From: Halanaerobium kushneri
Lineage (GTDB): Bacteria; Bacillota; Halanaerobiia; Halanaerobiales; Halanaerobiaceae
DNA: 64,000 nt
Direction: 5' to 3'
NCBI RefSeq assembly: GCF_900156285.1
Contig: NZ_FTNC01000001.1
Coordinates: 62,001-126,000 of the forward strand
The position numbers were made by a program, and so were the translations under genes. Position 1 is the first letter of the stretch. Each line of letters starts with the position of its first letter. The notes below the pieces were generated by a model. That model did not search any database. It was not told the DNA's origin and saw only the letters and a list, made by a program, of their open reading frames with translations. Below are positions 24,573-62,893 of this stretch, one piece after another.

Positions 24573-25511
24573 TTAAAAATCCGGCATTTCGTCAATGGCA
24601 TTTTTCTTTTCTTCGGTATCGACATGAGTATAAATCTGAGTTGTAGACAGATTGGCATGACCTAAAAGATCCTGCAGGACTTTAATATCCTTAGTCTGCC
24701 GATAAAGAGTAGAAGCAAAAGTATGGCGGAGTTTGTGGGGAGTTATTTTTTCAGCTCTACTCAAACCAGCATTTTTTGCATATTTTTTGACAAAAAGTTG
24801 AATTGTTCTGGGACTGATTCTCCTGCCGTGACGAGAGATAAAAACAGCCTGTCGGGCATCACTATCTTTAATTTTAATCGAATTTCTTTCTCTCATATAG
24901 CGTCTGATTGCTAAGATTACATCATTATGCAGCGGTACATAGCGCTCCTTTTTTCCCTTACCATAAAACTTGATCGAAGCATCTTCAAAATCAATATTAT
25001 CAAAATCTAAATTAACCAATTCTGAAATCCGGAGTCCAGCATAAAGGAAGAGTTTAACTATGGCCAGATCACGTAATCGGTTAATTCCACCATGTTCTTC
25101 GATGGCACTGATAAATTTCTGTGCCTCCTTAAGCTTTAAATAAATTGGTTCCAGCCGGTTATCAGTTTTACTGCTTTCTATTGCTTCTGCTGGATTTTTA
25201 GTCACAATCCCATAGTGGAGTAGATATTTATAAAAAGAGCGGACAGCAAAAAGTTTTCGATTTCTGGTAACCGCTTTATTATCATTAATAATTACTGCAT
25301 CAGCCAGAAATTCCGAAATATCAAGTCGATCAACCTCATCTGGTCTAAAACCTTCCTTAAAATCAAGTTCTTCTCGTAGATATTTATGTAATTGGTGTAG
25401 ATCACTATCATACTCCTTAATTGTCAGCTTAGAGTATCCCTTTTCCACATCAAGATATTTTTTAAATTTATTTAAAGCCTGTAAAAAATCAAGTTGAGAA
25501 ATTTTAATCAC
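24573..25511 (-). CDS. Xer-type tyrosine recombinase
   Basis: A 312-residue site-specific recombinase with a SAM-like N-terminal DNA-binding domain (FKKYLDVEKGYSKLTIKEYD) and a C-terminal catalytic domain. The catalytic set is visible: Arg in AGLRISELV, Lys in GKGKKERYVPL, His-x-x-Arg in THKLRHTFAS (HKLRH), His in LGHANLSTTQ and Tyr in IYTHV. This is the XerC/XerD/XerA layout for chromosome dimer resolution. Whether it is the XerC or XerD partner cannot be said. The start is a GTG that overlaps the ribosome site, so the true start may be two to four codons later. Confidence 0.9.
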   Translation of the reverse strand: MIKISQLDFLQALNKFKKYLDVEKGYSKLTIKEYDSDLHQLHKYLREELDFKEGFRPDEVDRLDISEFLADAVIINDNKAVTRNRKLFAVRSFYKYLLHYGIVTKNPAEAIESSKTDNRLEPIYLKLKEAQKFISAIEEHGGINRLRDLAIVKLFLYAGLRISELVNLDFDNIDFEDASIKFYGKGKKERYVPLHNDVILAIRRYMRERNSIKIKDSDARQAVFISRHGRRISPRTIQLFVKKYAKNAGLSRAEKITPHKLRHTFASTLYRQTKDIKVLQDLLGHANLSTTQIYTHVDTEEKKNAIDEMPDF

Positions 25512-33459: not shown

Positions 33460-34545
33460 ATGAGATTAACGCTAAATCAAGGCAAAAATCTGATTTGTGT
33501 ACGTTTTGATTATGATGAAGTTGTAATTAGAAAAATGAATACAATCCCTGGTAGCCGCTGGAATCCAAAAAGAAAGTACTGGACTTTTGAAAATAATTAC
33601 AGCAATTTGGCCCTGTTTTTAGAAATGTTTAAGCATAAATATCTACTTTTTGAGTCAAGAATAAAAGATTTTACTGCGCCAGAATTAATAGCAAATTATT
33701 TTAATTCTTATTATTTACCACAATTTGAAAAGAAGTTGAAGTTAAAAGGTTATTCTCAAAATTCAATTAAAGCATATTTAAATCACAATAAGTCATTTAT
33801 TAAATATATTAAAAAAGATCTATTTAGAATAGAAATGTCTGATGTTAATGATTATGTATTATATTTACTGGAAGAATTAAATAATACTCATTCGTATGCC
33901 AACCAGTTTATCAGTGCTTTCAAAACTTTTAATAATTTAATTTTGGAATTGGATGGAATTAATAATAAATTGTTTCGGCCAAAAAAGAAAAAGAAATTAC
34001 CTAAAGTTTTAAATAAGACAGAGGTTAAGGATATTATTTCAGCGGTTGATAATCTAAAGCATCAGCTTATTTTAATTTTAACTTATTCTGCTGGTTTGAG
34101 AGTAAGTGAGGTAGTGAAATTAAAAATTTCTGATATTGATTCTAATAGAATGTTGATTTATATCCGTTCTGCGAAGGGGTATAAAGATAGGTATACTCTG
34201 CTATCTAAAAGTGCTTTAAACAAACTAAGACTATATTTAAAAGCTTTTCGGGTGCATAAATATGATGCTCAGTGGCTTTTTCCTGGTCAGGATAAGGATA
34301 AGCATCTGTCAAAGCGGAGTGCCCAGAAGATTTTTAAGCGCGCCTGCAGACAAGCTGGAATTAATAAAGAGGTCGGAATTCATTCGTTGAGACATTCTTT
34401 TGCTACCCATTTGCTGGAGCAGGGAGTTGATTTGAGGTATATACAAAATCTGCTGGGACATAAGAGTTCTACAACAACAGAAATTTACACTCATGTTAGC
34501 AATAAAAATCTAATTGAAATTACTAATCCTTTTGATAAGTTATAG
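33460..34545 (+). CDS. Tyrosine recombinase next to the cassette array, candidate integron-type integrase
   Basis: 361 residues. An extra N-terminal region (about 1-65, VRFDYDEVVIRKMNTIPGSR) resembles a HARP-like module found on some integrases. Then come a SAM-like domain (residues 75-170, KGYSQNSIKAYLNHNKSF) and a catalytic domain with Arg in AGLRVSEVV, Lys in SAKGYKDRYTLL, HSLRHSFATHL, LGHKSSTTTEIYTHV and a final TNPFDKL. The last segment resembles the IntI ending SPLD. The IntI-specific insertion before the second catalytic box is not visible: SALNKLRLYLKAFRVHKYD runs straight into QWLFPG. It reads towards the array, with its 3' end by the attI-like site. It is the only nearby candidate to move the cassettes, but function is inferred. 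Confidence 0.85.
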   Translation: MRLTLNQGKNLICVRFDYDEVVIRKMNTIPGSRWNPKRKYWTFENNYSNLALFLEMFKHKYLLFESRIKDFTAPELIANYFNSYYLPQFEKKLKLKGYSQNSIKAYLNHNKSFIKYIKKDLFRIEMSDVNDYVLYLLEELNNTHSYANQFISAFKTFNNLILELDGINNKLFRPKKKKKLPKVLNKTEVKDIISAVDNLKHQLILILTYSAGLRVSEVVKLKISDIDSNRMLIYIRSAKGYKDRYTLLSKSALNKLRLYLKAFRVHKYDAQWLFPGQDKDKHLSKRSAQKIFKRACRQAGINKEVGIHSLRHSFATHLLEQGVDLRYIQNLLGHKSSTTTEIYTHVSNKNLIEITNPFDKL

Positions 34546-34560
34546 AGATATACAGATTTT

Positions 34561-34634
34561 AACGAAATGACATTCGTGAAGATCCAAAAATAATGATTTT
34601 AATGAAATTTCATTCGCAAATAAGCAAGTTATAC
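34561..34634 (+). other. attI-like insertion site of the cassette array
   Basis: GTTATAC at 34628-34634 is the first R'-type core. Cassette 1 begins at its TT, because the bases from 34629 onward are complementary to the end of cassette 1 before 34965. Upstream lie two direct repeats, GAAATGACATTCG (34564) and GAAATTTCATTCG (34604), 40 bases apart, reminiscent of integrase-binding repeats in attI. No attC hairpin precedes this core. Confidence 0.65.
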
Positions 34635-34957
34635 GCAATAATGATTAAACAGCAGCAAATTAAGAAAAAAAGATAAGAGAAGGGTTGGGGCATCGCTAAC
34701 TGAAGCTAATTTACTCCCAACCGCTTAGAAATTAATAATTGTAAGTTTCTAGTGTTTAAACAATAAACCTGGGCAATTATAATTTAGCAAATTATTTGCA
34801 TATATCAAAGAGTAAATTAGTCACTGTTCGATCTTCACGAACTTCGTGAAGATGTAATATAGTACAGAATATACGAAGGCTTGTTGGTAAAGTGTTGATA
34901 TCATAAGTCAGCAAGTTGAAGAAAGATAAAATTTTTTATGCGGCAAATCATTACAGC
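34629..34957. other. Cassette 1: non-coding cassette, family 1
   Basis: No convincing gene on either strand. Contains AGAAGGGTTGGGGCATCGC near 34679 and a perfect hairpin ATCTTCACGA-ACT-TCGTGAAGAT at 34831-34853. The sequence is closely similar to cassette 16 (50158-50481) and more distantly to cassette 2. Conservation without coding suggests an RNA or regulatory role, or a dead cassette that duplicated. Confidence 0.7.
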
Positions 34958-35061
34958 GCATAACATGGGATTGAAGATTCCGCTGCGCTCCATCCAAATT
35001 CGTTCGGTAAGGGCAGTCGCCCTAGACCTCACGAACTTCTTAAATCCCAGTAACGTTATAT
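34958..35061 (+). repeat. attC 1 (type B)
   Basis: R'' GCATAAC 34958-34964; L'' TGGGATT; L' AATCCCA; R' GTTATAT 35055-35061. Closes non-coding cassette 1. Confidence 0.9.
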
Positions 35062-35394: not shown

Positions 35395-35522
35395 ATATAA
35401 CATGGGATTAACGGCATGCCCTCTGGCACAAAGTTAGCATTTAAACAATTACGGATATGATAGCTAACTTTGCACCAGGTCTGTGGACACCGGGCACACC
35501 GCGAATCCCAGTACCGTTATAC
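35395..35522 (+). repeat. attC 2 (type A variant)
   Basis: R'' ATATAAC 35395-35401; L'' TGGGATT; L' AATCCCA; R' GTTATAC 35516-35522. Inner arms GTTAGCATTT / TAGCTAACTT replace the usual AAGCTTGC arms. Confidence 0.88.
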
Positions 35523-36975: not shown

Positions 36976-37107
36976 GTATAACATGGGATTGGCGTCATGC
37001 CTTCTGTCATAAAGCTTGCAGGTTAACCAATAACGGATACGGAAAAGCAAGCTTTACGCCAGTTCCTACGGAACCAGGCACGAGCGCAAATCCCAGTAAC
37101 GTTATGT
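36976..37107 (+). repeat. attC 3 (type A)
   Basis: R'' GTATAAC 36976-36982; TGGGATTGGCG / CGCAAATCCCA inner boxes; R' GTTATGT 37101-37107. Outer boxes do not match each other because the TT side of R' belongs to cassette 4, a trace of recombination. Confidence 0.95.
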
Positions 37108-37543: not shown

Positions 37544-38398
37544 ATGGAATTTGGTTTTTTAAATGAAAATAATAGTTATACTACTAAATTTATTGAAATA
37601 AGGCCGTTAAATGATATTAATAAAAAAATAAAATTTTTAAAAGATAATTTTTATATAAAAAACGGTTGGATATATCCACCTATAAAAACTGATATAAAAG
37701 GAAATTCTACTAGACCTGTGGTTTGGTATGGACTTCCTAGTTCACATAAATTAGTTTTAAAGATTTCAAATAATAAAGATTTACAGGATTTTATTCCAAT
37801 ATTTTTTGGATTTCTAAAGGGATTACATATGTTTCGTGACGGATGGGGACATTATTATAAAACTCCTATAAATGAAGGTAAATTAATTCGGTTTTATTGT
37901 ACAAAGGAAGAAATTTGTATAATTCTCGATAAGGTAATAAATTTGTATAAAAACGACTATGACATTTTTAAAAATTACTATGCTGCAATTCATTGGTTTT
38001 TGTTTGGACAAAGTTATTCTCATGTGTTTGAGAAATTTGATGCACAGTATCGAGTGTTAGATTGTTGCTATAAGATATCTACAGAGTTAAATCATATTAA
38101 TAGAGCAAGATATCATGCCGAAAGAATAGAAAAGTTATGCACTTATTATGATATCTTTTTACCCAATTGGGCAAAATCAAAGGATGGAAAGTCAACTTTA
38201 TCAGAATTAAGAAATAACTTAATACATGAAGCAAAATATGCTGGAGAACCAGTTGGTCTTAATTCTGATGACAAACAACTTTGGTTCAATTTAAAATTAA
38301 TAAATGAAAGAATTTTATTATCAATATTAGGAGTTAAATCTAAAATGTTTTCAAATAAATTAGTTAGGTCTCGTTATGCCTTAGATTGGATAAAGTAA
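37544..38398 (+). CDS. HEPN-motif protein, cassette 4 (paralogue of cassette 19)
   Basis: 284 residues, family not recognised. It aligns along its full length with the protein at 54991-55854 (shared FGFLNE opening, KFDAQYRVLDCCY, STLSELRNNLIHEA, the ending LDWIK). RNNLIH near residue 210 matches the R-x4-H motif of HEPN domains, many of which are toxin RNases in defence. Also shared are LKGLHMFRDGWGHYYKTPI and AIHWFLFGQSY. RNase activity is an inference. RBS GGTGAGGG. The cassette boundary sequences of both paralogues also match. Confidence 0.72.
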   Translation: MEFGFLNENNSYTTKFIEIRPLNDINKKIKFLKDNFYIKNGWIYPPIKTDIKGNSTRPVVWYGLPSSHKLVLKISNNKDLQDFIPIFFGFLKGLHMFRDGWGHYYKTPINEGKLIRFYCTKEEICIILDKVINLYKNDYDIFKNYYAAIHWFLFGQSYSHVFEKFDAQYRVLDCCYKISTELNHINRARYHAERIEKLCTYYDIFLPNWAKSKDGKSTLSELRNNLIHEAKYAGEPVGLNSDDKQLWFNLKLINERILLSILGVKSKMFSNKLVRSRYALDWIK

Positions 38399-38412: not shown

Positions 38413-38552
38413 GCATAACATGGTATTTCCGCAGACGGCAAAACCCAGCCTGCCCTTCGGGACATTGACTTTGTCATGATTAATGCAAAATTCGGCATAA
38501 ATCATGACAACCCTATGGGACGTCAACGTCGGAAATACCAGGGACGTTAGAC
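38413..38552 (+). repeat. attC 4 (covarying L boxes)
   Basis: R'' GCATAAC 38413-38419; L'' TGGTATTTCCG and L' CGGAAATACCA replace TGGGATT/AATCCCA with compensating changes; R' GTTAGAC 38546-38552. Inner arms GTCATGATT / AATCATGAC. Confidence 0.9.
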
Positions 38553-39680: not shown

Positions 39681-39788
39681 GTCTAACAGCAAGGTTTACG
39701 GTTCCACTATCGTTCCACCCAAATTCAAGTGCCTAACATAAGAGCTATGTAAGGCCCTTGAACTTCGTAAACCTGCAGGACGTTAGAC
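39681..39788 (+). repeat. attC 5 (divergent inner boxes)
   Basis: R'' GTCTAAC 39681-39687; inner boxes AAGGTTTACG / CGTAAACCTG instead of TGGGATT/AATCCCA, still complementary; R' GTTAGAC 39782-39788. Confidence 0.85.
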
Positions 39789-40547: not shown

Positions 40548-40679
40548 GCATAACATGGGATTGGCGTCATGCCTTCTGTCATAAAGCTTGCAGATTACCC
40601 AATCACGGATATGGAAAAGCAAGCTTTACGCCAGTTCCTACGGAATCAGGCACGAGCGCAAATCCCAGTAACGTTAGAT
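40548..40679 (+). repeat. attC 6 (type A)
   Basis: R'' GCATAAC 40548-40554, preceded by a second R''-like GCCCAAC at 40541; TGGGATTGGCG / CGCAAATCCCA; R' GTTAGAT 40673-40679. Confidence 0.94.
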
Positions 40680-41843: not shown

Positions 41844-41947
41844 ATCTAACATGGGATTGAAGGTTCCGCTGCGCTCCACGCAAATTCATTCAGCAAGGGC
41901 GGTCGCCCTAAGCTTCATGAACTTCTTAAATCCCAATAACGTTAGAC
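41844..41947 (+). repeat. attC 7 (type B)
   Basis: R'' ATCTAAC 41844-41850; TGGGATT / AATCCCA; R' GTTAGAC 41941-41947. Confidence 0.93.
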
Positions 41948-42934: not shown

Positions 42935-43038
42935 GTCTAACATGGGATTGAAGGTTCCGCTGCGCTCCACGCAAATTCATTCGGCAAGCCAGGTCTGGCT
43001 AAGCCTCATGAACTTCTTAAATCCCAGTAACGTTAGAC
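42935..43038 (+). repeat. attC 8 (type B)
   Basis: R'' GTCTAAC 42935-42941; TGGGATT / AATCCCA; R' GTTAGAC 43032-43038. Confidence 0.94.
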
Positions 43039-44112: not shown

Positions 44113-44244
44113 GTCTAACATTGGATTGGCGTCATGCCTTCTGTCATAAAGCTTGCAGGCTAACCATAACGGATATGAAAAAGCAAGCTTTACGCCAGTT
44201 CCTAACGGAACCAGGCACGAGCGCAAATCCCAGTAACGTTATGT
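44113..44244 (+). repeat. attC 9 (type A)
   Basis: R'' GTCTAAC 44113-44119; TTGGATTGGCG / CGCAAATCCCA (one mismatch); R' GTTATGT 44238-44244. Confidence 0.93.
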
Positions 44245-45081: not shown

Positions 45082-45214
45082 ACATAACATGGGATTGGCG
45101 TCATGCCTTCTGTCATAAAGCTTGCAGGCTTACCAATTACGGATATGAAAACGCAAGCTTTATGCCAGTTCCTGACGGAACCAGGCACGAGCGCAAATCC
45201 CAGTAACGTTATCT
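45082..45214 (+). repeat. attC 10 (type A)
   Basis: R'' ACATAAC 45082-45088; TGGGATTGGCG / CGCAAATCCCA; R' GTTATCT 45208-45214. Confidence 0.95.
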
Positions 45215-46411: not shown

Positions 46412-46545
46412 AGATAACATGGGATTGGCGTCATGCCTTCTGTCATAAAGCTTGCAGGTTAACCAATCACGGATACGGAAAAAGCAAGCTTTCTGCCAGT
46501 TCCTAAAGGAACCAGGCACGAGCGCAAATCCCAGTAACGTTATAC
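46412..46545 (+). repeat. attC 11 (type A)
   Basis: R'' AGATAAC 46412-46418; TGGGATTGGCG / CGCAAATCCCA; R' GTTATAC 46539-46545. Confidence 0.95.
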
Positions 46546-47318: not shown

Positions 47319-47451
47319 GTATAACATGGGATTGGCGTCATGCCTTCTGTCATAAAGCTTGCAGATTAAACAATAACGGATATGAAAAAGCAAGCTTTAC
47401 GCCAGTTCCTAACGGAATCAGGCACGAGCGCAAATCCCAGGGACGTTAGAC
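47319..47451 (+). repeat. attC 12 (type A)
   Basis: R'' GTATAAC 47319-47325; TGGGATTGGCG / CGCAAATCCCA; R' GTTAGAC 47445-47451. Confidence 0.95.
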
Positions 47452-48361: not shown

Positions 48362-48493
48362 GTCTAACATGGGATTGGCGTCATGCCTTCTGTCATAAAG
48401 CTTGCAGGTTAACCAATAACGGATATGAAAAAGCAAGCTTTACGCCAGTTCCTGCGGAATCAGTCACGAGCGCAAATCCCAGGGACGTTATAT
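48362..48493 (+). repeat. attC 13 (type A)
   Basis: R'' GTCTAAC 48362-48368; TGGGATTGGCG / CGCAAATCCCA; R' GTTATAT 48487-48493. Confidence 0.95.
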
Positions 48494-48549
48494 GCAATAA
48501 CAGCCTGGATTGCAAGTAAAGAACATCTCTAGCAGGAAGGATAAAACTT

Positions 48550-48915
48550 ATGAAACCCAAATTAGAATCTGCTTACATAGCTGTAGAAAATATTGATAGA
48601 GCAATAAATTTTTATGAATGGTTTTTAGAAAGATCAGCAACTAAGAAAGGGGAGAGTTTATATCTCTTTGATGTAGATGGATTTCGCCTTTTCTTGTTTG
48701 ATCATAATAATGAGAATGAAGAAGTAAAGTATGGAGATAACTGCTTATTAAGTTTTGAAGTTGATGATGCTAGAAAAACAAAAGAAAAGTTAGAAGACCG
48801 TAATTTAAAGATCGTTTTTCCGTTAACTAAAATCCAGGATAATTTAGTATTTGAGTTCGAAGATCCTGAAGGAAACCATATAGAGGTCTTTTCTAAGGTA
48901 TCAGCATCAAAATAA
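48550..48915 (+). CDS. Glyoxalase/VOC-fold protein, cassette 14
   Basis: 121 residues of the vicinal-oxygen-chelate fold: YIAVENIDRAINFYEWFLE start, FEFEDPEGNHIEVFSK end with the usual ExxDPxGN. Members include glyoxalases and fosfomycin or bleomycin resistance proteins; function is not specified by the sequence. A second, diverged copy begins at 63721. RBS AGGAAGGAT. Confidence 0.85.
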   Translation: MKPKLESAYIAVENIDRAINFYEWFLERSATKKGESLYLFDVDGFRLFLFDHNNENEEVKYGDNCLLSFEVDDARKTKEKLEDRNLKIVFPLTKIQDNLVFEFEDPEGNHIEVFSKVSASK

Positions 48916-48961
48916 AGTAATAATTAAGGAAAAGTTCATCGTGACTATCGGCTGTTACAGC

Positions 48962-49120
48962 ATATAACATGGGATTGCCGTTAGGCTAAAGAGCAAGCCT
49001 ACCCTTCGGGACATGCCTTCTGTCACAAAGCTTGCAATAATTGCAGCAAGATATCTGGAAGGCAAGCTTTCCGCCAGGCCTGAGGGCACAGGCACGTCGG
49101 AAATCCCAGTAACGTTATGT
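48962..49120 (+). repeat. attC 14 (type A with an extra inner segment)
   Basis: R'' ATATAAC 48962-48968; TGGGATTGCCG / CGGAAATCCCA; R' GTTATGT 49114-49120. It is about 27 bases longer than other type A sites: an extra CTAAAGAGCAAGCCTACCC segment lies near the left arm. Confidence 0.92.
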
Positions 49121-50025: not shown

Positions 50026-50157
50026 ACATAACATGGGATTGGCGTCATGCCTTCTGTCATAAAGCTTGCAATATTAAGCAGCAAGAAATATTACGACAAG
50101 CTTTACGCCAGTTCCTGGCGGAACCAGGCACAAGCGCAAATCCCAGTAACGTTATAC
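50026..50157 (+). repeat. attC 15 (type A)
   Basis: R'' ACATAAC 50026-50032; TGGGATTGGCG / CGCAAATCCCA; R' GTTATAC 50151-50157. Confidence 0.95.
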
Positions 50158-50481
50158 GAAATAATAACTGAACATCGGCAAATAAGAGAAAAAGATAAAA
50201 GAAGGGTTGGATCATCGCTTACTGCTATGAACTAGCTCCTCCAAATGAAGAAAATAATCACTGCAGATTTCAAGTGGTTTTAACAATAGACTTGGACAAT
50301 TATAATTTACAAAATTATTTACATATATCAAAGAATAAATTAGTCACTGATTGATCTTCACGCACTTCGTGAAGATTTAATATAGTGCAGAATATACGAA
50401 GTACTAGCTGGTTAAGAGTTAATATCATTGTTCAGTAAGTTGAAGAAAGATAAAATATTTTACGCAGCCAGTTATTACAGC
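50158..50481. other. Cassette 16: non-coding cassette, family 1
   Basis: No convincing gene. Near copy of cassette 1: AGAAGGGTTGGATCATCGCT, ATTAGTCACTG, hairpin ATCTTCACGC-ACT-TCGTGAAGAT (50354-50376), AGAATATACGAAG and GTTGAAGAAAGATAAAA occur in the same order. Cassettes 1 and 16 also end in the same attC type. Confidence 0.72.
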
Positions 50482-50585
50482 GCATAACATGGGATTGAAG
50501 ATTTCGCTTCGCTCCATCCAAATTCGTTCGGTAAGGGCGGTCGCCCTAGACCTCACGAACTTCTTAAATCCCAGTAACGTTATCC
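50482..50585 (+). repeat. attC 16 (type B)
   Basis: R'' GCATAAC 50482-50488; TGGGATT / AATCCCA; R' GTTATCC 50579-50585. Confidence 0.94.
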
Positions 50586-50617: not shown

Positions 50618-52174
50618 GTGTATATTAAAGAAATAGCTATATCAGGTTATAAAACTTTAGTAGATTTTAAATTTGAAGAGATACAAGAAGGTTTAAATAT
50701 ATTAGTTGGAAAAAATAATGTAGGAAAAAGTAATATTTTAAAGGCTCTTGAAATTTTTTTTACTCGTCAAGGTACTTTAAGAAAAGATGAGATTGCAAAT
50801 TCTTTTGATTCATTTTTAAATAATAGAGATAACATTTATATGGAAATTGTTTTTGCTAATGCTTCCAATATGTTTAATAATAATGAAAATGAGGTAAGTT
50901 TAAAAATTGATTTGAATGAAAATAATAGAAAATATATGTTAAAAAAACAAGGCAAATATATAAATATGTCTAAAAATAGCTTTTTTAAAAATAATCCAAA
51001 ATATATTTATTTTGGTGATTTAAATGAAATTAATTTTAATTCAGATGATTTGCAGCAACTATATTCTATAAATAATTCAAATGAAAGAAGAAAAATTGAA
51101 ACTAATGCTTCTCAGTTTTTACAATTTATTTTAAATACAAACATTAATATTTCAATTAATATAAAAAATGATAATACCTATAGCATTGATGTAATTGATA
51201 GTTACGGAAATAGTAATTTATTATCGAATAAAAGTTCTGGTTTACAACAATTAGTTTACTTAGGATTAGTTTTTTCTTTTAATTTATTGAAAAAACCAGA
51301 AAATATTATTTTAGGTATTGAAGAACCTGAATCTAATTTACATACTTCATTACAAAAAAGACTTTTTAAAAGAATAAGGGAGATTTCTGAAGCATATTCT
51401 ATACAAATTTTTTTAACAACACATTCTCCAATTTTTATTGATAAATTTAATCATAAATCTGTCCATCATGTTAAAAGAAATAATAAAATGCATACAAAAG
51501 TATTAAAAGAAAGTTATAGAAATAATTGGTTTGACATAAGAAAGGACTTAGGTTTAGGTGTTAACGATTCGCTATTTGTAGGAGAATTTAATTTACTTGT
51601 TGAAGGACCTACTGAAAAAATTATATTCCCAAAAATAATAAAAATATTACATGATAAAGATTTAATTAGTTTTAGTGAAGAAGATATTAATTTGTTAAGT
51701 GCTCAGGGAGCTTCTAACTTACATTATTTTTCTAAATTAATATCTCAAATGGAATTACCAACTATTGTTTTAGTAGACAAAGATCAAGAAGGAAATAATG
51801 CAAAAGATAAAATTGAAGAAGATAATTTTTTTAACAAGTTAAGGGTTATCTCGTTAGATAAAGAAGAATATGAAGAATGTGAAATTGAAGATTTAATTAG
51901 TGATGATATATTATTAAAAAGTATAAATGAGTTATATAATAGCTCATTAAATAATGAAGATCTATTAAAAGCTCGAAAAAATGAACATCATGAAGAGGCA
52001 GGTTTAATAAAGTTTTCAAAGGCATTTAAGAAACTTGATCTAGAAAAAGATAGAGATTTATCTAAATTAAACCTTGCAACAAAAATAAAAAGCAATTTAG
52101 ATGAAGAATCTGATTTAAAATTAATTCAACAATTTTTTATAGAAATGGATAGTTTTTATAAAGAGTTTATGTAA
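50618..52174 (+). CDS. OLD-family ATP-dependent nuclease, cassette 17
   Basis: 518 residues: an SMC/RecF-like ATPase with Walker A VGKNNVGKSNILKAL near residue 35, Walker B GIEEPESNLH near residue 231, then a TOPRIM nuclease domain, NLLVEGPTEKIIFPKI and TIVLVDKDQEGNNA. GTG start after GAGAGGAG. The related GajA works with GajB in Gabija, and PARIS pairs another ATPase with a toxin. No such partner is in this cassette, so it may act alone like classical OLD. Likely anti-phage. Confidence 0.9.
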   Translation: MYIKEIAISGYKTLVDFKFEEIQEGLNILVGKNNVGKSNILKALEIFFTRQGTLRKDEIANSFDSFLNNRDNIYMEIVFANASNMFNNNENEVSLKIDLNENNRKYMLKKQGKYINMSKNSFFKNNPKYIYFGDLNEINFNSDDLQQLYSINNSNERRKIETNASQFLQFILNTNINISINIKNDNTYSIDVIDSYGNSNLLSNKSSGLQQLVYLGLVFSFNLLKKPENIILGIEEPESNLHTSLQKRLFKRIREISEAYSIQIFLTTHSPIFIDKFNHKSVHHVKRNNKMHTKVLKESYRNNWFDIRKDLGLGVNDSLFVGEFNLLVEGPTEKIIFPKIIKILHDKDLISFSEEDINLLSAQGASNLHYFSKLISQMELPTIVLVDKDQEGNNAKDKIEEDNFFNKLRVISLDKEEYEECEIEDLISDDILLKSINELYNSSLNNEDLLKARKNEHHEEAGLIKFSKAFKKLDLEKDRDLSKLNLATKIKSNLDEESDLKLIQQFFIEMDSFYKEFM

Positions 52175-52186
52175 TATAGTTACTTC

Positions 52187-52319
52187 GGATAACATGGGAT
52201 TAGCGTCATGCCTTCTGTCATAAAGCTTGCAGGCTAACCAATCACGGATATGAAAACGCAAGCTTTACGCCAGTTCCTAGCGGAACCAGGCACGAGCGCA
52301 AATCCCAGTAACGTTAGAC
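52187..52319 (+). repeat. attC 17 (type A)
   Basis: R'' GGATAAC 52187-52193; TGGGATTAGCG / CGCAAATCCCA; R' GTTAGAC 52313-52319. The following 130 bases (to 52451) are AT-rich with no further feature seen. Confidence 0.94.
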
Positions 52320-52451: not shown

Positions 52452-53894
52452 ATGAAATATTGGCATGAAACGATAAAAATTCCAAACTTATTTATAAATA
52501 CTGAAAATCCTAGATTTGAAATTGCAGATAGTCAGAAAGAAGCTATTGAAAATATGATAGAAAATCAAAACCAAAAGTTATATAGGTTAGCTGTAGATAT
52601 TATTGAATCCGGTTTAAATCCTTCTGATCTTCCTATTGTAACTTCATTGGATGATTCTAAAAATCGATATAGAGTTTTAGAAGGAAATAGAAGGATAACT
52701 GCTTTAAAGTTATTATTAGAACCTAATATAGCGTCTTCCAAAAACAATAATTTAAAGAAAAAATTTAAAAGACTTAATAAACAATATGATATAAGTGGTT
52801 TTGAAGAAATAACTTGTGTGGCTTTTGAAGAAGAAGCCGACGCTATTCATTGGATTGAAATAAAACATTCCGGACAATTAGATGGTATTGGTACTGTTAC
52901 TTGGGATGCTACTTCTAAAAGAAGGTTCGAAAGAAGATTGGGGAAATCAACTAAATGTTTGCAGGTTTTAGAATTTATAAAAGAATCAGATATACTAAAT
53001 GAAGAAACAAAAAATAATTTTAATTCTATAGCAATTACAAATCTTGAAAGATTAATAAGTGATCCAGCTGTAAGAGAATTTTTAGGAATAGAATTCATTG
53101 ATGGTAATTTACATATAATTCATCCAAAAGAAGAAGTCTTTAAAGGACTTGCAAAAGTGATTAAAGATTTAGTTCATAAAAATATAATTGTAGATGATAT
53201 TTATTATAAAGATGATCGTGCAAATTACCTTGAAAATTTTGATGCTTCTCAAATACCTAATACAGAAGTAGTATATGAAAATCCAAAAGATGCATTTGAT
53301 GAAAACAAAGCATCTGATAAAACAGATGAAAATAATAATAATTCTAATAATAATTTAGATTCCAAGAGAAAAGATGCTGAGAAAAAAGAAAATAATAAAG
53401 AAAAAAATGAATCGAAAGAGAACAATGATGAAAAAAGGAAACCTAAATCTAAAAGAAGGTCTTTTTTTAGACACGGACTTATTCCAAGCAATTGTATTTT
53501 AGAAATAGAAGATAAAAGAATAAATAAGATTTATATGGAGCTGAAAAAAATTGAGGTTGAAAAGTTTCCTAATTTGACTGCTGTTTCATTTAGAGTCTTT
53601 CTTGAATTAAGTTTAGATCATTATATTGAAGAAAATAATTTAGAAAATATAAGTATTGATTCTAGGCTTTCTACTAAAGTTCAAAAAGTAGCAGAAGATT
53701 TGAAAGATAAAGATTTATTGACTGACCAAGAATTGAAACCAGTTAATGTATCAGTTTCTAATCCTGATAGTATAATTTCAATTAATACATTTAATGCATA
53801 TGTTCATAATAAAAATATGCAACCAATTGCTAAAGATTTAAAAATCAATTGGGAAAGATTAGAAAATTATTTTAAAGGAATATGGAATAACTAA
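52452..53894 (+). CDS. ParB-like domain protein, cassette 18
   Basis: 480 residues. Residues about 5-110 form a ParB/Srx-like N-terminal domain: IPNLFINTENPRFEI, LPIVTSLDDSKNRYRVLEGN with RRITALKLLL following, the nucleotide-binding region. Residues about 275-335 are an Asn/Lys/Glu low-complexity linker. The C-terminal part (about 340-480) is helical and unassigned. It is encoded 22 bases upstream of a DNA adenine methylase in the same cassette, suggesting a two-gene modification-linked system. RBS AGGAGGAAT. Confidence 0.78.
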   Translation: MKYWHETIKIPNLFINTENPRFEIADSQKEAIENMIENQNQKLYRLAVDIIESGLNPSDLPIVTSLDDSKNRYRVLEGNRRITALKLLLEPNIASSKNNNLKKKFKRLNKQYDISGFEEITCVAFEEEADAIHWIEIKHSGQLDGIGTVTWDATSKRRFERRLGKSTKCLQVLEFIKESDILNEETKNNFNSIAITNLERLISDPAVREFLGIEFIDGNLHIIHPKEEVFKGLAKVIKDLVHKNIIVDDIYYKDDRANYLENFDASQIPNTEVVYENPKDAFDENKASDKTDENNNNSNNNLDSKRKDAEKKENNKEKNESKENNDEKRKPKSKRRSFFRHGLIPSNCILEIEDKRINKIYMELKKIEVEKFPNLTAVSFRVFLELSLDHYIEENNLENISIDSRLSTKVQKVAEDLKDKDLLTDQELKPVNVSVSNPDSIISINTFNAYVHNKNMQPIAKDLKINWERLENYFKGIWNN

Positions 53895-53916
53895 ATAATA
53901 GGTATGGTGATTATAT

Positions 53917-54780
53917 ATGAGATTTTATTCTCCTTTGCGTTATCCTGGGGGAAAAGGAAAATTATCGGATTATATGAAATTAATAATTAGAAAAAATAAT
54001 TTATTAGATGGAACTTATGTAGAACCATTTGCTGGAGGGGGAGGAATTGCTCTATCTTTATTATGTAATGAATATGTATCAGATATTTTAATTAATGATT
54101 TAAGTAATTCAATTTATGCTTTTTGGTATTCTGTGTTAAATCATACCGATAAATTATGTGAGTTGATTTCTGAAACTTCAATAACTGTTGATGAATGGCA
54201 TAAACAAAAATCTATCCAAGAACAATTTAATAGTTCTATTTTAGAATTAGGATTTTCCACTTTTTTTCTTAATAGGACAAATAGATCAGGTATTTTACAA
54301 GGGGGGGTTATAGGAGGCCTTGAGCAAAATAGCAAATGGAAAATTAATGCTAGATTTAATAAAGAAAATTTAATTAAACGAATTAAAAAGATTTCTAGGT
54401 ATAAAGATAGAATTAGATTATATAATTTAGATGCTGCAAATTTAATAACAGATGTGATTCCTGATTTACCAAATAAGACTTTAGTTTATCTAGATCCTCC
54501 CTATTTTAATAAAGGAAAACATTTATATGAAAATTATTATAAAGAGGAAGATCATGCTGATTTAGCTGAGATAATAATTAATAAAATTGAACAACATTGG
54601 ATAGTCACCTATGATAATACTCCAGAAATAAGTAAATTATATAATGAATGTTACCAAAAAATTTATTCTCTTAGTTATAGTGCAGCTAAGAAATATAAAG
54701 GTTCTGAAATTATGGTGTTTAGTGATAAATTAGTTGTTCCTAAAATCGACACTCCAGTGAAATTCAATGTTAATGAATAG
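53917..54780 (+). CDS. DNA adenine methyltransferase, Dam/D12 class, cassette 18
   Basis: N6-adenine methylase of the D12 class. Motif X is LRYPGGKGKL near residue 6, motif I is VEPFAGGGGIALSLL, motif IV is LVYLDPPYFNKG near residue 192. 287 residues, standard. Target sequence unknown. It is coupled to the ParB-like gene in a single cassette. No restriction enzyme is adjacent in this cassette, but nucleases are encoded in other cassettes. Confidence 0.93.
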   Translation: MRFYSPLRYPGGKGKLSDYMKLIIRKNNLLDGTYVEPFAGGGGIALSLLCNEYVSDILINDLSNSIYAFWYSVLNHTDKLCELISETSITVDEWHKQKSIQEQFNSSILELGFSTFFLNRTNRSGILQGGVIGGLEQNSKWKINARFNKENLIKRIKKISRYKDRIRLYNLDAANLITDVIPDLPNKTLVYLDPPYFNKGKHLYENYYKEEDHADLAEIIINKIEQHWIVTYDNTPEISKLYNECYQKIYSLSYSAAKKYKGSEIMVFSDKLVVPKIDTPVKFNVNE

Positions 54781-54824: not shown

Positions 54825-54957
54825 GTCTAACATGGTGTTAGCGACATCTAGTTGCAATATATAAAATTTAATTAGATATAATTTATGAAAGTCTGGGTAA
54901 TTAATACTCAGACTTTTAAATTTATACTAGACGTCGCGAACACTAGGAACGTTATAC
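54825..54957 (+). repeat. attC 18 (covarying L boxes)
   Basis: R'' GTCTAAC 54825-54831; L'' TGGTGTTAGCGACATCTAG pairs with L' CTAGACGTCGCGAACACTA, so GGTGTT/AACACT replaces GGGATT/AATCCC; R' GTTATAC 54951-54957. The inner hairpin AAGTCTGGGT...ACTCAGACTT is unrelated to type A. Confidence 0.9.
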
Positions 54958-54990: not shown

Positions 54991-55854
54991 ATGATTGAAT
55001 TTGGTTTTTTAAATGAAAGCAAAATCTATTCAAGTGATTTGATGGAGATTATTCCTTTAGATGATATTACAGAAAAATATGAGTTCTTAAAAGAAAATTT
55101 TTATATAGAAAATAGTTGGTTATATCCACCTATTGGATATGATAAAAAAAATAAACCTACTAAGTGTGTAAGTTGGTTTGCACTTCCAAATTCACATAAA
55201 TTGTTATTGAAAAGTAAGTTTAAAAAAAATAATGAGTTACAAAAATTTATTCCTACTATATTTGGCTTCTTAAAAGGATTACAGATGTATCGCGATGGTT
55301 GGGGACACTATTATAAAACACCTATTAAAGAAGGAAAATTAATTAGTTTTTATTGTAACGATAAAGAATTATGTAAAATAATTGATAAAATAATTTTTTT
55401 ATATCAAAAAGATTCTAATATTTTCAAAAGTTATGCTGCAGCTATTCATTGGTTTTTGTTTGGTCAAAGTTATAAATATGAATTTGAAAAATTTGATGCA
55501 CAGTATAAGGTTTTAGATTGTTGCTACAATATTGCTACAAAGATAACAGATATTGATAAAGCAAAAACTCATGCCCAAAGAATAGAAAATTTATGCTTAT
55601 ATTATAATATTTATTTACCTGATTGGGCTAGAGTAAAAAATGGAAGATCAACTTTATCAGAATTAAGAAATAATTTAATACATGAAGCTAAATTTGCTGG
55701 GGAGCCAATTGGAGTTAGCTCAGACGAAGAAAATCTTTATTTTAATTTACAATTAATAAATGAGAGAATTTTATTATCAATACCAGGGGTAAGATCAGAA
55801 ATGTTTTCTACTGGATTGACTAGGTTTCCATATAGTTTAGACTGGATAAAGTAA
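54991..55854 (+). CDS. HEPN-motif protein, cassette 19 (paralogue of cassette 4)
   Basis: 287 residues, paralogous along the full length to 37544-38398. The R-x4-H motif RNNLIH lies in STLSELRNNLIHEAKFAGEP; other conserved stretches are RDGWGHYYKTPI, AIHWFLFGQSY and KFDAQYKVLDCCY. Same cassette start (ATAATGCCAAAG) and end (GGCATTACG) as cassette 4, so the whole cassette, not only the gene, was duplicated and then diverged. Function inferred as HEPN RNase or RNA-binding. Confidence 0.72.
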   Translation: MIEFGFLNESKIYSSDLMEIIPLDDITEKYEFLKENFYIENSWLYPPIGYDKKNKPTKCVSWFALPNSHKLLLKSKFKKNNELQKFIPTIFGFLKGLQMYRDGWGHYYKTPIKEGKLISFYCNDKELCKIIDKIIFLYQKDSNIFKSYAAAIHWFLFGQSYKYEFEKFDAQYKVLDCCYNIATKITDIDKAKTHAQRIENLCLYYNIYLPDWARVKNGRSTLSELRNNLIHEAKFAGEPIGVSSDEENLYFNLQLINERILLSIPGVRSEMFSTGLTRFPYSLDWIK

Positions 55855-55869
55855 ACTGGCATTACGATC

Positions 55870-56002
55870 GTATAACATGGGATTGTCGTGATGCCTTCAG
55901 TCATAAAGCTTGCTGGCTAGCCAATTACGGATATGAAAAGGCAAGCTTTAGGTCAGTTCCTGACGGAACCAGGCACAAGCACAAATACCAGGGATGTTAG
56001 GC
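55870..56002 (+). repeat. attC 19 (type A, diverged)
   Basis: R'' GTATAAC 55870-55876; TGGGATT against AATACCA gives a mismatched L stem; R' GTTAGGC 55996-56002. Several other substitutions suggest decay. Confidence 0.88.
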
Positions 56003-58650: not shown

Positions 58651-58781
58651 GCCTAACATGGAGTTAGCAACATTCAGCTTGCTGGTTAAAAGTAGGACAA
58701 GTGGGGACTCATGAAATTCACCAGTTAGAGTGTAGATTCAGAGGGGTAGCGTGAACGTCGTGAACTCCAGGGACGTTATAC
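58651..58781 (+). repeat. attC 20 (covarying L boxes)
   Basis: R'' GCCTAAC 58651-58657; L'' TGGAGTT pairs with L' AACTCCA, replacing TGGGATT/AATCCCA; R' GTTATAC 58775-58781. Confidence 0.9.
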
Positions 58782-58790
58782 GACATTGGG

Positions 58791-59195
58791 CTAAGTAATT
58801 ACTGCTACTGGAACATCAATACTTTTAGCTGCTCTAATTAATTTTTTATCTAATGTTACTAAAGTAGCATTTTTACGCCTGCTTGTAACTAAATACATAG
58901 CGTCATAAGCAGGATTACTTATCTTGCATGAAAGTGGCAAAGCTTCTTCAAAAATATCTTTTGCATCAATAAATTGATCTACCATTTTATAAAGATATTC
59001 AATTTTTTTCATAATATCTTCTTTGCTATAATCTTGATATCCATGATATTTCCACAATGTATTACTAGCTTCATAAATAAAAAGAGAAGGAGCAATTACC
59101 CAGTCTGCGTCATTTAATATATTTACAATTTCTTGTTGTCTTTTACCACCCACCACTATTTCAACAGCTGCACTTACATCGAGTGTAATTCTCAT
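58791..59195 (-). CDS. vapC: PIN-domain toxin of a VapBC-type pair, cassette 21
   Basis: 134-residue PIN nuclease: ITLDVSAAVEIV with the first acidic residue, a middle Glu, and YDAMYLVTSRRKNATLVTLD with the late Asp residues. Expected to cleave tRNA or rRNA when not bound by its antitoxin. It is read against the cassette direction, overlaps the antitoxin by four bases (ATGA) and ends only about ten bases after the attC 20 R' box. Confidence 0.88.
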   Translation of the reverse strand: MRITLDVSAAVEIVVGGKRQQEIVNILNDADWVIAPSLFIYEASNTLWKYHGYQDYSKEDIMKKIEYLYKMVDQFIDAKDIFEEALPLSCKISNPAYDAMYLVTSRRKNATLVTLDKKLIRAAKSIDVPVAVIT

Positions 59196-59649: not shown

Positions 59650-60399
59650 TTAATTTTGGGCTCCTTTCATCAGTGAATTTTTGATTCTATGACTGTCACC
59701 AGGAAATACAAGTAGGTGACTGTGGTGTACCAATCTATCAATTAAAGCAGCTGTCATCTGCTCATCATAAAAAATATTAGCCCATTTACTAAATTCAAGA
59801 TTAGTTGTGATTATCAGGCTCTTTTTCTCATAACAGTCTGAAATTATCTGGAACAGGAGCTGAGATCCCTCTCTGTCGAGAGGAATATAGCCCCATTCAT
59901 CACAAATTATTAAGTCTGCTTTTTCTATCTTTTTAAATAATTTGTCCAGTTTTCCTTCTTCTTTTGCCTTGCTTAATTGATTAACCAGGGTTGCTGTTCT
60001 AAAGAACAAAACTGATTTTCTCTGGCGGCAAACTTCCAGGCCAATCGCCGTTGCAAGATGAGATTTCCCGGTACCAGCGGCCCCATACAGTATTAAATTC
60101 TCTTTTTTCTCAATAAAGCTTCCTGTTTTTAGATCTTCAATTGATAGTGCAGAAGGTATTCTGATTTCATCAAACGAATAGCCTTCAAAGGTCTTAATAG
60201 TATAAAATTTAGCCTGTTTAATCAGTCTTTCTATCTTTTTGGCTTTACGGTATTCAACTTCATTTTGCAGTATTTCAAGTAGAAACTCATAACGATTTTC
60301 AGCTTCAATACTTTCAAAATTATCAGCTATGTTCTGACTTAATTTAAGAGTTTTGCAGCAGGCTGCAATCTGATCTTTAATCATTGGCTTCAACTCCAT
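59650..60399 (-). CDS. istB: IS21-family helper ATPase IstB
   Basis: 249-residue AAA+ ATPase that activates target DNA for the transposase: Walker A GAAGTGKSHLATAIG near residue 105, Walker B ADLIICDEWGYIPLDREG and sensor IITTNLEFSKW. It lies 42 bases after istA in the same direction. Length and motifs are intact, so the element may be active. Confidence 0.96.
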   Translation of the reverse strand: MELKPMIKDQIAACCKTLKLSQNIADNFESIEAENRYEFLLEILQNEVEYRKAKKIERLIKQAKFYTIKTFEGYSFDEIRIPSALSIEDLKTGSFIEKKENLILYGAAGTGKSHLATAIGLEVCRQRKSVLFFRTATLVNQLSKAKEEGKLDKLFKKIEKADLIICDEWGYIPLDREGSQLLFQIISDCYEKKSLIITTNLEFSKWANIFYDEQMTAALIDRLVHHSHLLVFPGDSHRIKNSLMKGAQN

Positions 60400-60441
60400 C
60401 TGCTACTGTATAGAAAGTATCATAAAAACTAATATCAGGTT

Positions 60442-61920
60442 TTATTCAGGTAATTCAGGTGCATTTTTAGCTGCTAAATGTCCATCAAGTTCCATAATCT
60501 TAGAGTTCTTTCTCTTAAATAGGACCTGGATGCTGTCAGTATCACTTGCTCCATGAGAGATAGCATCTAAGAGTGCATCTACTGCTGCCTCAAAATTTGT
60601 TTCTTCTGTCAGTGTATTTAGAGTTTTTAGTGTTGCTTTTAAGTTCTCGTAATCTAAAGTATCAAAATAATCTTTAGCTGCCTTAGGAAATAGATCATAA
60701 ATCCCAGTATATTTTAAAGCTGTTGGCCTTTTTGATATTTGACCTAAATAAAGAATCCAGTTAATTGATTCCTGTTTTAAGTCACCATAAAGCCTGTCAT
60801 GAGTCACAATTTCTTTAAGGTCCTGTTCTAAGATTATCACTTTCTCAGCTGTAAGTTTAACAAAAACATTGCTTTTAGCAAGACTTGGTTTAGTAGAATA
60901 TCTGTGTTTACCTTTATGAATAGTAATACAGGCATTGGCATCAGCTTTCTTGGAAACAACCAATGCTGGCTCAAATTTGAGCTCAGGCAGTGGTAATAAT
61001 GCTTTTAGATCAGCTTGAAACAACTCATGCTGAGTAGCATTTTTCCTGTAGTGTTCACGATACTGATCATCATCAAGTTCAGTAAGTAATGATTTATTGA
61101 ATTCATCTAAATTATCAAATTCTGGTGGTGGCACAAAATAGTTGCGTCTGTGATAGCCAACTTTACCCTCGACATTGCCTTTTTCATGCCCACTTGCTGG
61201 ATTACAAAATACAGCTTCAAATCTAAAATGGTTTTTAAACATCATAAAGTGTTCAGTCAGTTTTCGATATTTGTTTTTTCCGATATCTGAAATCATACTG
61301 GAAGCATTATCAAAAACTATTCTGGAGGGAACACCACCAAGATGATTAAATATGTTTATCATGCCCTGTTCTAAACACTGCAGATTTTCACCCTTAAATA
61401 GCTGGGCATAACCAGTATTACTCTGTGGAAAGCTAAGATTTAAATGGCGGCCTTCATAAAAAGTCCCATTTTCTCTAAAATCTGTTCTACCAAAGTCAAC
61501 CTGAGCTTCTCCAGGCAGATGTTTTAACGGTAAAAAGAATTTAGGCTCATCAGAAAATATTTCTTTCTTTTTGATTTTCACATATTCAGCTAACAATCGA
61601 TAAGAGCAGTCATATTTACTACCATAGATTTCAGTTAATCTGGTATGTATCCTTTTTGCAGTATGACGCTGTTTTCTCCAGACTTTTTTATCAGCTTCAA
61701 GCCACTCATCAATAGTTTTCTTAAATGGGTCCAACTTGGAGCCACGCTTGGATCTTTCAGGTGTTTCTAAAACTAGATTAAAATCAGTCATATCGAGGTA
61801 TTTATTAATTGTTTTGCGATCATGACCCGTTTTTCTCATTATTTCAGCCACATTTAAACCTTTCTTAAAGTACAGTTTTTTGATATCATTAATATCAGTC
61901 ATTGCTAATGTCATCTCCAT
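60442..61920 (-). CDS. istA: IS21-family transposase IstA
   Basis: 492 residues with an N-terminal helix-turn-helix (VAEIMRKTGHDRKTINKYLD), then a DDE/rve catalytic core: Asp in GEAQVDFGRTDF, Asp in RIVFDNASSMI and Glu in GHEKGNVEGKVGYHRRNYF. ATG at 61920 after GGGAGG. Full length and unbroken. Confidence 0.96.
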   Translation of the reverse strand: MEMTLAMTDINDIKKLYFKKGLNVAEIMRKTGHDRKTINKYLDMTDFNLVLETPERSKRGSKLDPFKKTIDEWLEADKKVWRKQRHTAKRIHTRLTEIYGSKYDCSYRLLAEYVKIKKKEIFSDEPKFFLPLKHLPGEAQVDFGRTDFRENGTFYEGRHLNLSFPQSNTGYAQLFKGENLQCLEQGMINIFNHLGGVPSRIVFDNASSMISDIGKNKYRKLTEHFMMFKNHFRFEAVFCNPASGHEKGNVEGKVGYHRRNYFVPPPEFDNLDEFNKSLLTELDDDQYREHYRKNATQHELFQADLKALLPLPELKFEPALVVSKKADANACITIHKGKHRYSTKPSLAKSNVFVKLTAEKVIILEQDLKEIVTHDRLYGDLKQESINWILYLGQISKRPTALKYTGIYDLFPKAAKDYFDTLDYENLKATLKTLNTLTEETNFEAAVDALLDAISHGASDTDSIQVLFKRKNSKIMELDGHLAAKNAPELPE

Positions 61921-62124: not shown

Positions 62125-62258
62125 GTATAACATGTGATTGGAGTCATGCCTCCTGTCATAAAGCTTGCAGACTTGACCAATTACGGATATGAAAAAGCAA
62201 GCTTTAGGCCATTTCCTGACGGAATCAGGCACGAGCGCAAATCCCAGGAACGTTATAC
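62125..62258 (+). repeat. attC 21 (type A)
   Basis: R'' GTATAAC 62125-62131; L'' TGTGATT against L' AATCCCA (one mismatch); R' GTTATAC 62252-62258. It closes the cassette that holds vapBC and the interrupted non-coding segment. Confidence 0.92.
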
Positions 62259-62714: not shown

Positions 62715-62793
62715 ATTTTAGGGGACTTAAAAAGGGGAGATAAGCCTTTTTAAATTTATGATAATTTCTAAAATTTATCAGAATAGCAAACCA

Positions 62794-62893
62794 CCTATGG
62801 GATTGAAGATTCCTTTACGCTCTACGAAAATTCATTCGGCATGGGCAGTCGCACTAAACCTCACGAACTTCTTAAATCCCAGGGACGTTATAT
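62794..62893 (+). repeat. attC 22 (type B, degenerate)
   Basis: R' GTTATAT 62887-62893 and TGGGATT / AATCCCA are present, but the R'' AAC is lost: ACCTATGGGATT stands where TAACATGGGATT is expected. Probably a poor substrate. It is the last site seen in the window. Confidence 0.8.

Follow-up and report, generated by a model that had tools for sequence, protein, structure and literature searches.

Can a tyrosine recombinase that lacks the hallmark of integron integrases still capture gene cassettes? Deletion of I2 abolishes IntI1 activity, and I2 has been stated to be necessary for cassette capture and, like single-strand recombination, exclusive to integron integrases (PMC7790495). An I2-less enzyme with the same job therefore contradicts current belief, and evolutionary intermediates are said to be lacking (PMC7790495; PMC9668308). 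The question is raised by a gene and the array behind it in a 64-kb stretch of Halanaerobium kushneri DNA (hereafter the window). We propose that its product serves a chromosomal integron as cassette integrase, belongs to a lineage parallel to IntI and captures folded cassettes without I2, a reading to which we give a probability of about 0.85. Integrons composed of attI, attC and a cassette array are known, also in reverse orientation; the novelty lies in an integrase lineage that does not pass the test by which IntI is defined. No earlier description of an I2-less integron lineage was found in the literature searched, most subscription papers and all preprints being outside its scope.

The window recombinase matches the Pfam profiles PF00589 (Phage_integrase, 144.8 bits) and SAM_4 (SAM-like arm-binding domain, 37 bits). 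All six catalytic residues are present (Table 1), as the initial annotation of this DNA had noticed, and they are near-invariant in an alignment of 107 relatives. That annotation had also seen no IntI insertion between the Lys box and the HxxR box, and the spacing, the alignment and the structural model agree with it. The K239–H308 spacing is 68 residues, compared with ~105 in IntI. Among ~190 relatives the Lys-to-HxxR spacing is bimodal (58–73 versus 102–114, the latter being the IntI group, mostly 105), and a few genes that are truncated or broken fall into neither group; the window recombinase belongs to the short-spacing group, and the IntI insertion is therefore absent from it. At the place of the insertion, VchIntIA (2a3v) has 58 residues opposite 20 of the window protein in a HMMER alignment to the crystal-structure sequence, and the AF2 model of the window protein (pLDDT 88) has no helix between H250–263 and H285–299. 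The curated cut-off of the IntI profile TIGR02249 is missed (196.3 versus 265 bits), the match consisting of two stretches that flank the gap where the insertion is missing. The cut-off of NF040815 (recomb_XerA_Arch, NCBIfam) is passed (230.4 versus 220 bits). The top Foldseek match is 2A3V (VchIntIA), while the best sequence match in the PDB is archaeal XerA. XerA, XerC and XerD (4A8E, 5HXY, 1A0P) have a core of equal length, likewise without the insertion. Unlike the Xer resolvases, the window protein is linked to attI and cassette arrays and carries an N-terminal module. A second tyrosine recombinase in the window (24612–25475, minus strand; 32% identical) is Xer-like and lacks this module.

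The N-terminal module, described as HARP-like in the initial annotation, is real and conserved, whereas its identity as HARP is weak. PF07443 (HARP) matches the window protein at E=0.01 (15.8 bits), under the Pfam gathering score of 25; the best match of a relative has E=6e-4, and 3 of 18 relatives match at E ≤ 0.01. The predicted fold is beta-beta-alpha-beta-beta-alpha-beta, with five strands and two helices in the right order for HARP. The structural matches to UvsW, the XPB N-terminus and the SMARCAL1 HARP domain are weak (E ≥ 0.07, Z 4.3–6.4); a confident structural identity was not reached, and any role given to the module is therefore hypothetical. The module is kept throughout the lineage and duplicated in several members, and it is also found in two Treponema-type IntI with I2 (L149 and L176).

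The recombinase gene, attI and the array follow in this order, all on the plus strand (Table 1), so that the 3' end of the gene faces attI and the gene reads into the array, as had been noted. Its orientation is indeed reversed relative to textbook integrons. This alone is not new, since intI is transcribed toward attI in Treponema integrons (PMC3607928), and orientation was dropped as the novelty of the locus. The Treponema integrons share both this orientation and the related module, but their IntI has the I2 insertion (spacing 105) and falls inside the IntI clade. The distance from the stop codon to the first G|TT, read from the sequence, is 85 bp in the window; it ranges from 59 to 88 bp within the genus and reaches ~210 bp in relatives further removed. 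In the relatives examined, a candidate attI immediately follows the recombinase gene, and its boxes are perfect palindromes in some of them. The 21 attC-like sites have a single orientation and reach 62.25 kb, and one degenerate site lies at 62.89 kb.

Table 1. Coordinates of the recombinase gene, the attI region and the attC-like sites in the window.
Feature	Position	Strand	Basis
I2-less tyrosine recombinase, proposed cassette integrase (361 aa)	33460–34545	+	profiles, alignment, AF2 model, tree
N-terminal HARP-like module (aa 1–66)	33460–33657	+	
Catalytic codons R214 (34099), K239 (34174), H308 (34381), R311 (34390), H334 (34459), Y343 (34486)	34099–34488	+	
Place (aa 259–282) of the ~37–41-residue insertion of IntI with the I2 helix, absent in the window protein	34234–34305	+	
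attI region: two imperfect inverted-repeat boxes (34556–34583, 34600–34619), crossover G|TT at 34628/34629	34546–34634	+	sequence only
attC-like site 1	34958–35061	+	
attC-like site 2	35395–35522	+	
attC-like site 3	36976–37107	+	
attC-like site 4	38413–38552	+	
attC-like site 5	39681–39788	+	
attC-like site 6	40548–40679	+	
attC-like site 7	41844–41947	+	
attC-like site 8	42935–43038	+	
attC-like site 9	44113–44244	+	
attC-like site 10	45082–45214	+	
attC-like site 11	46412–46545	+	
attC-like site 12	47319–47451	+	
attC-like site 13	48362–48493	+	
attC-like site 14 (ends the cassette found at attI in a congener)	48962–49120	+	
attC-like site 15	50026–50157	+	
attC-like site 16	50482–50585	+	
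attC-like site 17	52187–52319	+	
attC-like site 18	54825–54957	+	
attC-like site 19	55870–56002	+	
attC-like site 20	58651–58781	+	
attC-like site 21 (cassette interrupted by IS21-like element, 59650–61920)	62125–62258	+	
Degenerate last site (R' at 62887 intact; R'' without AAC)	62793–62893	+	

Cassettes that form circles and insert at G|TT must each have an R'' box that pairs with the 5' end (TTRRRYG) of the same cassette, an end located at the previous site in the array. R'' is perfect against the cassette's own 5' end in 17 of 20 cases and against the adjacent R' in 3 of 20. The own-end matches cover 128 of 140 positions, compared with 118 in the best of 200,000 permutations. R'' thus tracks the 5' end of its own cassette rather than the adjacent R', which fits an exchange of cassettes at G|TT, and an array of chance repeats is ruled out by the permutation and by shuffles. 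Cassette 14 (48487–49114) recurs with 96% identity in a congener (G001), in the first position after attI. On the attI side, identity is 95% to the right of G|TT and 7% to the left; at the far end it is 97% up to the G and 63% beyond. A natural movement of a cassette between species at G|TT is visible in these junctions. As judged from the DNA, the locus qualifies as an integron by its cassette array in one orientation, its G|TT crossover rule, its attI adjoining the gene and its hairpin attC. The array, the adjacent attI, the crossover rule and the use of a tyrosine recombinase are shared with IntI systems (class 1 IntI1, VchIntIA/2A3V).

The cargo of the array is varied. Cassette 18 (52452–54780) encodes both PD-Lambda-5 defence proteins (E 2e-159 and 9e-127), cassette 17 (50618–52174) encodes an OLD/GajA-like protein, and Mrr-like, Schlafen AlbA_2, TIR-effector-like and GIY-YIG proteins are encoded on other cassettes. 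Cassettes 4 and 19 carry homologous genes whose family is unassigned (37544–38398 and 54991–55854; 284 and 287 aa; ~76% identical DNA). A VapC-like toxin gene (58791–59195, minus strand) and an IS21-like istA/istB pair (minus strand) inside the last intact cassette were recognised by eye. A non-coding cassette of ~427 nt is repeated (34629–35055 and 50152–50579) and occurs also at five other loci (L039, L041, L042, L045 and L047), with 1–4 copies per stretch read that are 73–85% identical. It contains a nearly invariant palindrome, ATCTTCACG[A/C/T]ACTTCGTGAAGAT, whose half-site CGTGAAGAT is also present in attI; this cassette might supply a promoter, encode an RNA or provide a site bound by the recombinase. 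An Rfam scan of the 64-kb window returned only a lysine riboswitch (RF00168, 19424–19613, plus strand, 105.9 bits).

Six attC-like sites folded as DNA gave z values of -2.1 to -7.6, and compensatory changes are found in the L stem, for example a GC pair replaced by TA or AT next to an AT pair replaced by GC. These strong hairpins and the covariation of R'' with the cassette's own 5' end suggest that the lineage uses folded single-strand sites. The R boxes are of the RYYYAAC/GTTRRRY type as in IntI attC, but the spacers between R and L are asymmetric (1/5 or 3/6 versus ~9/9). This geometry was measured in sites, detected with a scanner tuned on the window's own sites, that pass the cassette rule of own-end pairing and have a stem of ≥6 bp anywhere; a is the number of unpaired bases from AAC to the longest L stem and b that from the longest L stem to GTT. 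Insertion-less systems mostly have (a,b) = (1,5) in the window's class and (3,6) in Bacteroidota, whereas IntI sites centre on (9,9). The difference b-a is 3–4 nt in 39 of 44 insertion-less sites of the window's class and in 15 of 18 of Bacteroidota, and -1 to +1 in 31 of 36 IntI sites, a small sample from few contigs with both strands counted. Such co-occurrence of protein type and hairpin type is expected if I2 and the extrahelical geometry that it reads have a substitute.

In a tree built without the columns that are poorly filled owing to the insertion, IntI forms a single clade (100/100) with the window protein outside it. The window lineage, its Bacteroidota members and a few array-less side branches make up an insertion-less clade (95/91), in support of the distinct lineage that had been surmised. 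Both clades stand apart from the Xer rows (100/99), and the window protein does not group with E. coli XerC/D or with the archaeal rows. The branching among the IntI clade, the window's clade, Patescibacteria and other proteins has a support of 82/50, too low to make the window's clade the sister of IntI. Since the Xer and archaeal outgroups lack the insertion, a gain of I2 is most simply placed on the IntI stem, and absence would be the simpler ancestral state. A true intI elsewhere in the genome would have spoken against the proposal; no protein in this genome or among 59 genomes of the window's class exceeds the IntI cut-off, and the second-best match in the genome, on contig C38, is Xer-like and interrupted and has no array.

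The arrangement of gene, attI and array is repeated at orthologues in the genus and in further families of the window's class. A genome scan placed the lineage also in Bacteroidota, Spirochaetota, one Undinarchaeales MAG and others. Arrays lie 3' of its members in Flavobacteriaceae, Flavobacterium, Rufibacter, Algibacter and Zunongwangia, and on a Chryseobacterium plasmid. Among insertion-less loci with the N-terminal module and enough flank, cassette-rule sites are found downstream in 19 of 23 (1 of 23 after shuffling) and upstream in 0 of 34. The linkage sought in other genomes thus recurs in the window's class and in Bacteroidota, and the close homologues do carry arrays rather than consistently lacking them. 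Insertion-less loci with no detectable module have downstream links in 5 of 43 cases, and at least two of these five (L016 and L096) belong to the lineage, their module being truncated or low in score. The scanner was not tuned to IntI arrays, and the IntI rows of this analysis are therefore no fair comparison. No array was detected by the scanner at lineage members L027/L057, L092 and L125, and L023/L053 have cassette-rule links only further downstream. A Sphingobium-type branch inside the I2-less clade has neither module nor array. On a viral contig, an I2-less recombinase (L173) has a cassette-rule array upstream and not downstream. In a congener with a one-contig genome, a long array is kept beside a recombinase broken by a split reading frame (L047; G007:C1:1188391-1190730), which amounts to a natural knock-out.

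Cassettes might instead be recombined by this lineage as double-stranded DNA at the L'/R' core in the manner of Xer, with hairpins that are incidental or serve only for binding. The Xer-like fold without I2 speaks for this, as do the attI boxes, which are palindromic, of the double-strand type and perfect in some relatives. We consider it unlikely, because it would leave unexplained why R'', ~90–150 nt away, follows the R' half of the cassette to which it belongs, and why there are strong conserved hairpins with compensatory changes. The window recombinase could also be a derived IntI that has lost the insertion. The array logic and the G|TT crossover are alike, and the Treponema-type IntI have the module and the reverse orientation too (PMC3607928). 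Yet the lineage keeps its own branch, excluded from the IntI clade, when the insertion columns are dropped, and ancestral absence is simpler; loss of I2 from within IntI is not supported by the tree and seems improbable.

Still less probable is that the window gene is a bystander and that the array depends on another enzyme, either an IntI that escaped detection or the host XerC/D. The genome has other tyrosine recombinases and is in 53 contigs, both of which would accommodate this; against it stand the failure of any protein in 59 genomes of the class to reach the IntI cut-off, the recurrence across phyla of the downstream-only association and the candidate attI directly behind the gene. Other Xer-like host enzymes (L002 and others) could nevertheless act in trans on the array.

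For an integrase of the proposed kind, the recombinase would bind double-stranded attI just 3' of its own gene and would itself catalyse strand exchange at G|TT between attI and the folded attC hairpin of a cassette circle, a single-stranded substrate; by such exchange cassettes would enter beside attI and be excisable at attC. With I2 and its reading of extrahelical bases missing, the enzyme may recognise the hairpin and its polarity by the constant 3–4-nt asymmetric internal loop between the R and L boxes. The HARP-like module would perhaps be the junction-binding part. A tentative extension, to which we give somewhat less than even odds, is that the capture of folded attC cassettes predates I2 and that this lineage is a descendant or a parallel of the ancestral integron integrase with its own solution, namely the asymmetric attC loop and the N-terminal junction-binding module. 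As to the order of events, attC may have been used before I2, or the recombinase may have been swapped into existing arrays.

IntegronFinder calls an integrase by PF00589 together with an IntI-specific profile (PMC9668308), and loci of this lineage would therefore at best score as arrays without an integrase. By the published rule the present locus would be a CALIN (an attC cluster without integrase), if its attC sites were recognised, but unlike a CALIN it has a linked recombinase of another lineage. The lineage could thus explain some arrays scored as integrase-less and could change detection rules. Integrons have been called extremely rare in groups such as Firmicutes (PMC9024848), and the lineage could widen their distribution into such groups. 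It also bears on resistance, since plasmid pHH1107 (L247, 4046–6067) has one of its members immediately upstream of tet(X3): the TnpF ('xerD') gene, a recombinase fragment truncated at its 5' end, falls in the Bacteroidota branch. An attI-like stretch precedes tet(X3) on this plasmid, and no intact attC was found behind it there; an intact tet(X3) cassette is not supported, since the R''-like end of the gene mismatches its 5' end and other tet(X) contexts lose homology just past the gene. With a widespread I2-less lineage next to arrays, direct tests of how single-strand recombination originated would become possible, and as the lineage adjoins arrays in many bacteria, it would provide living material for testing the evolution of integrons.
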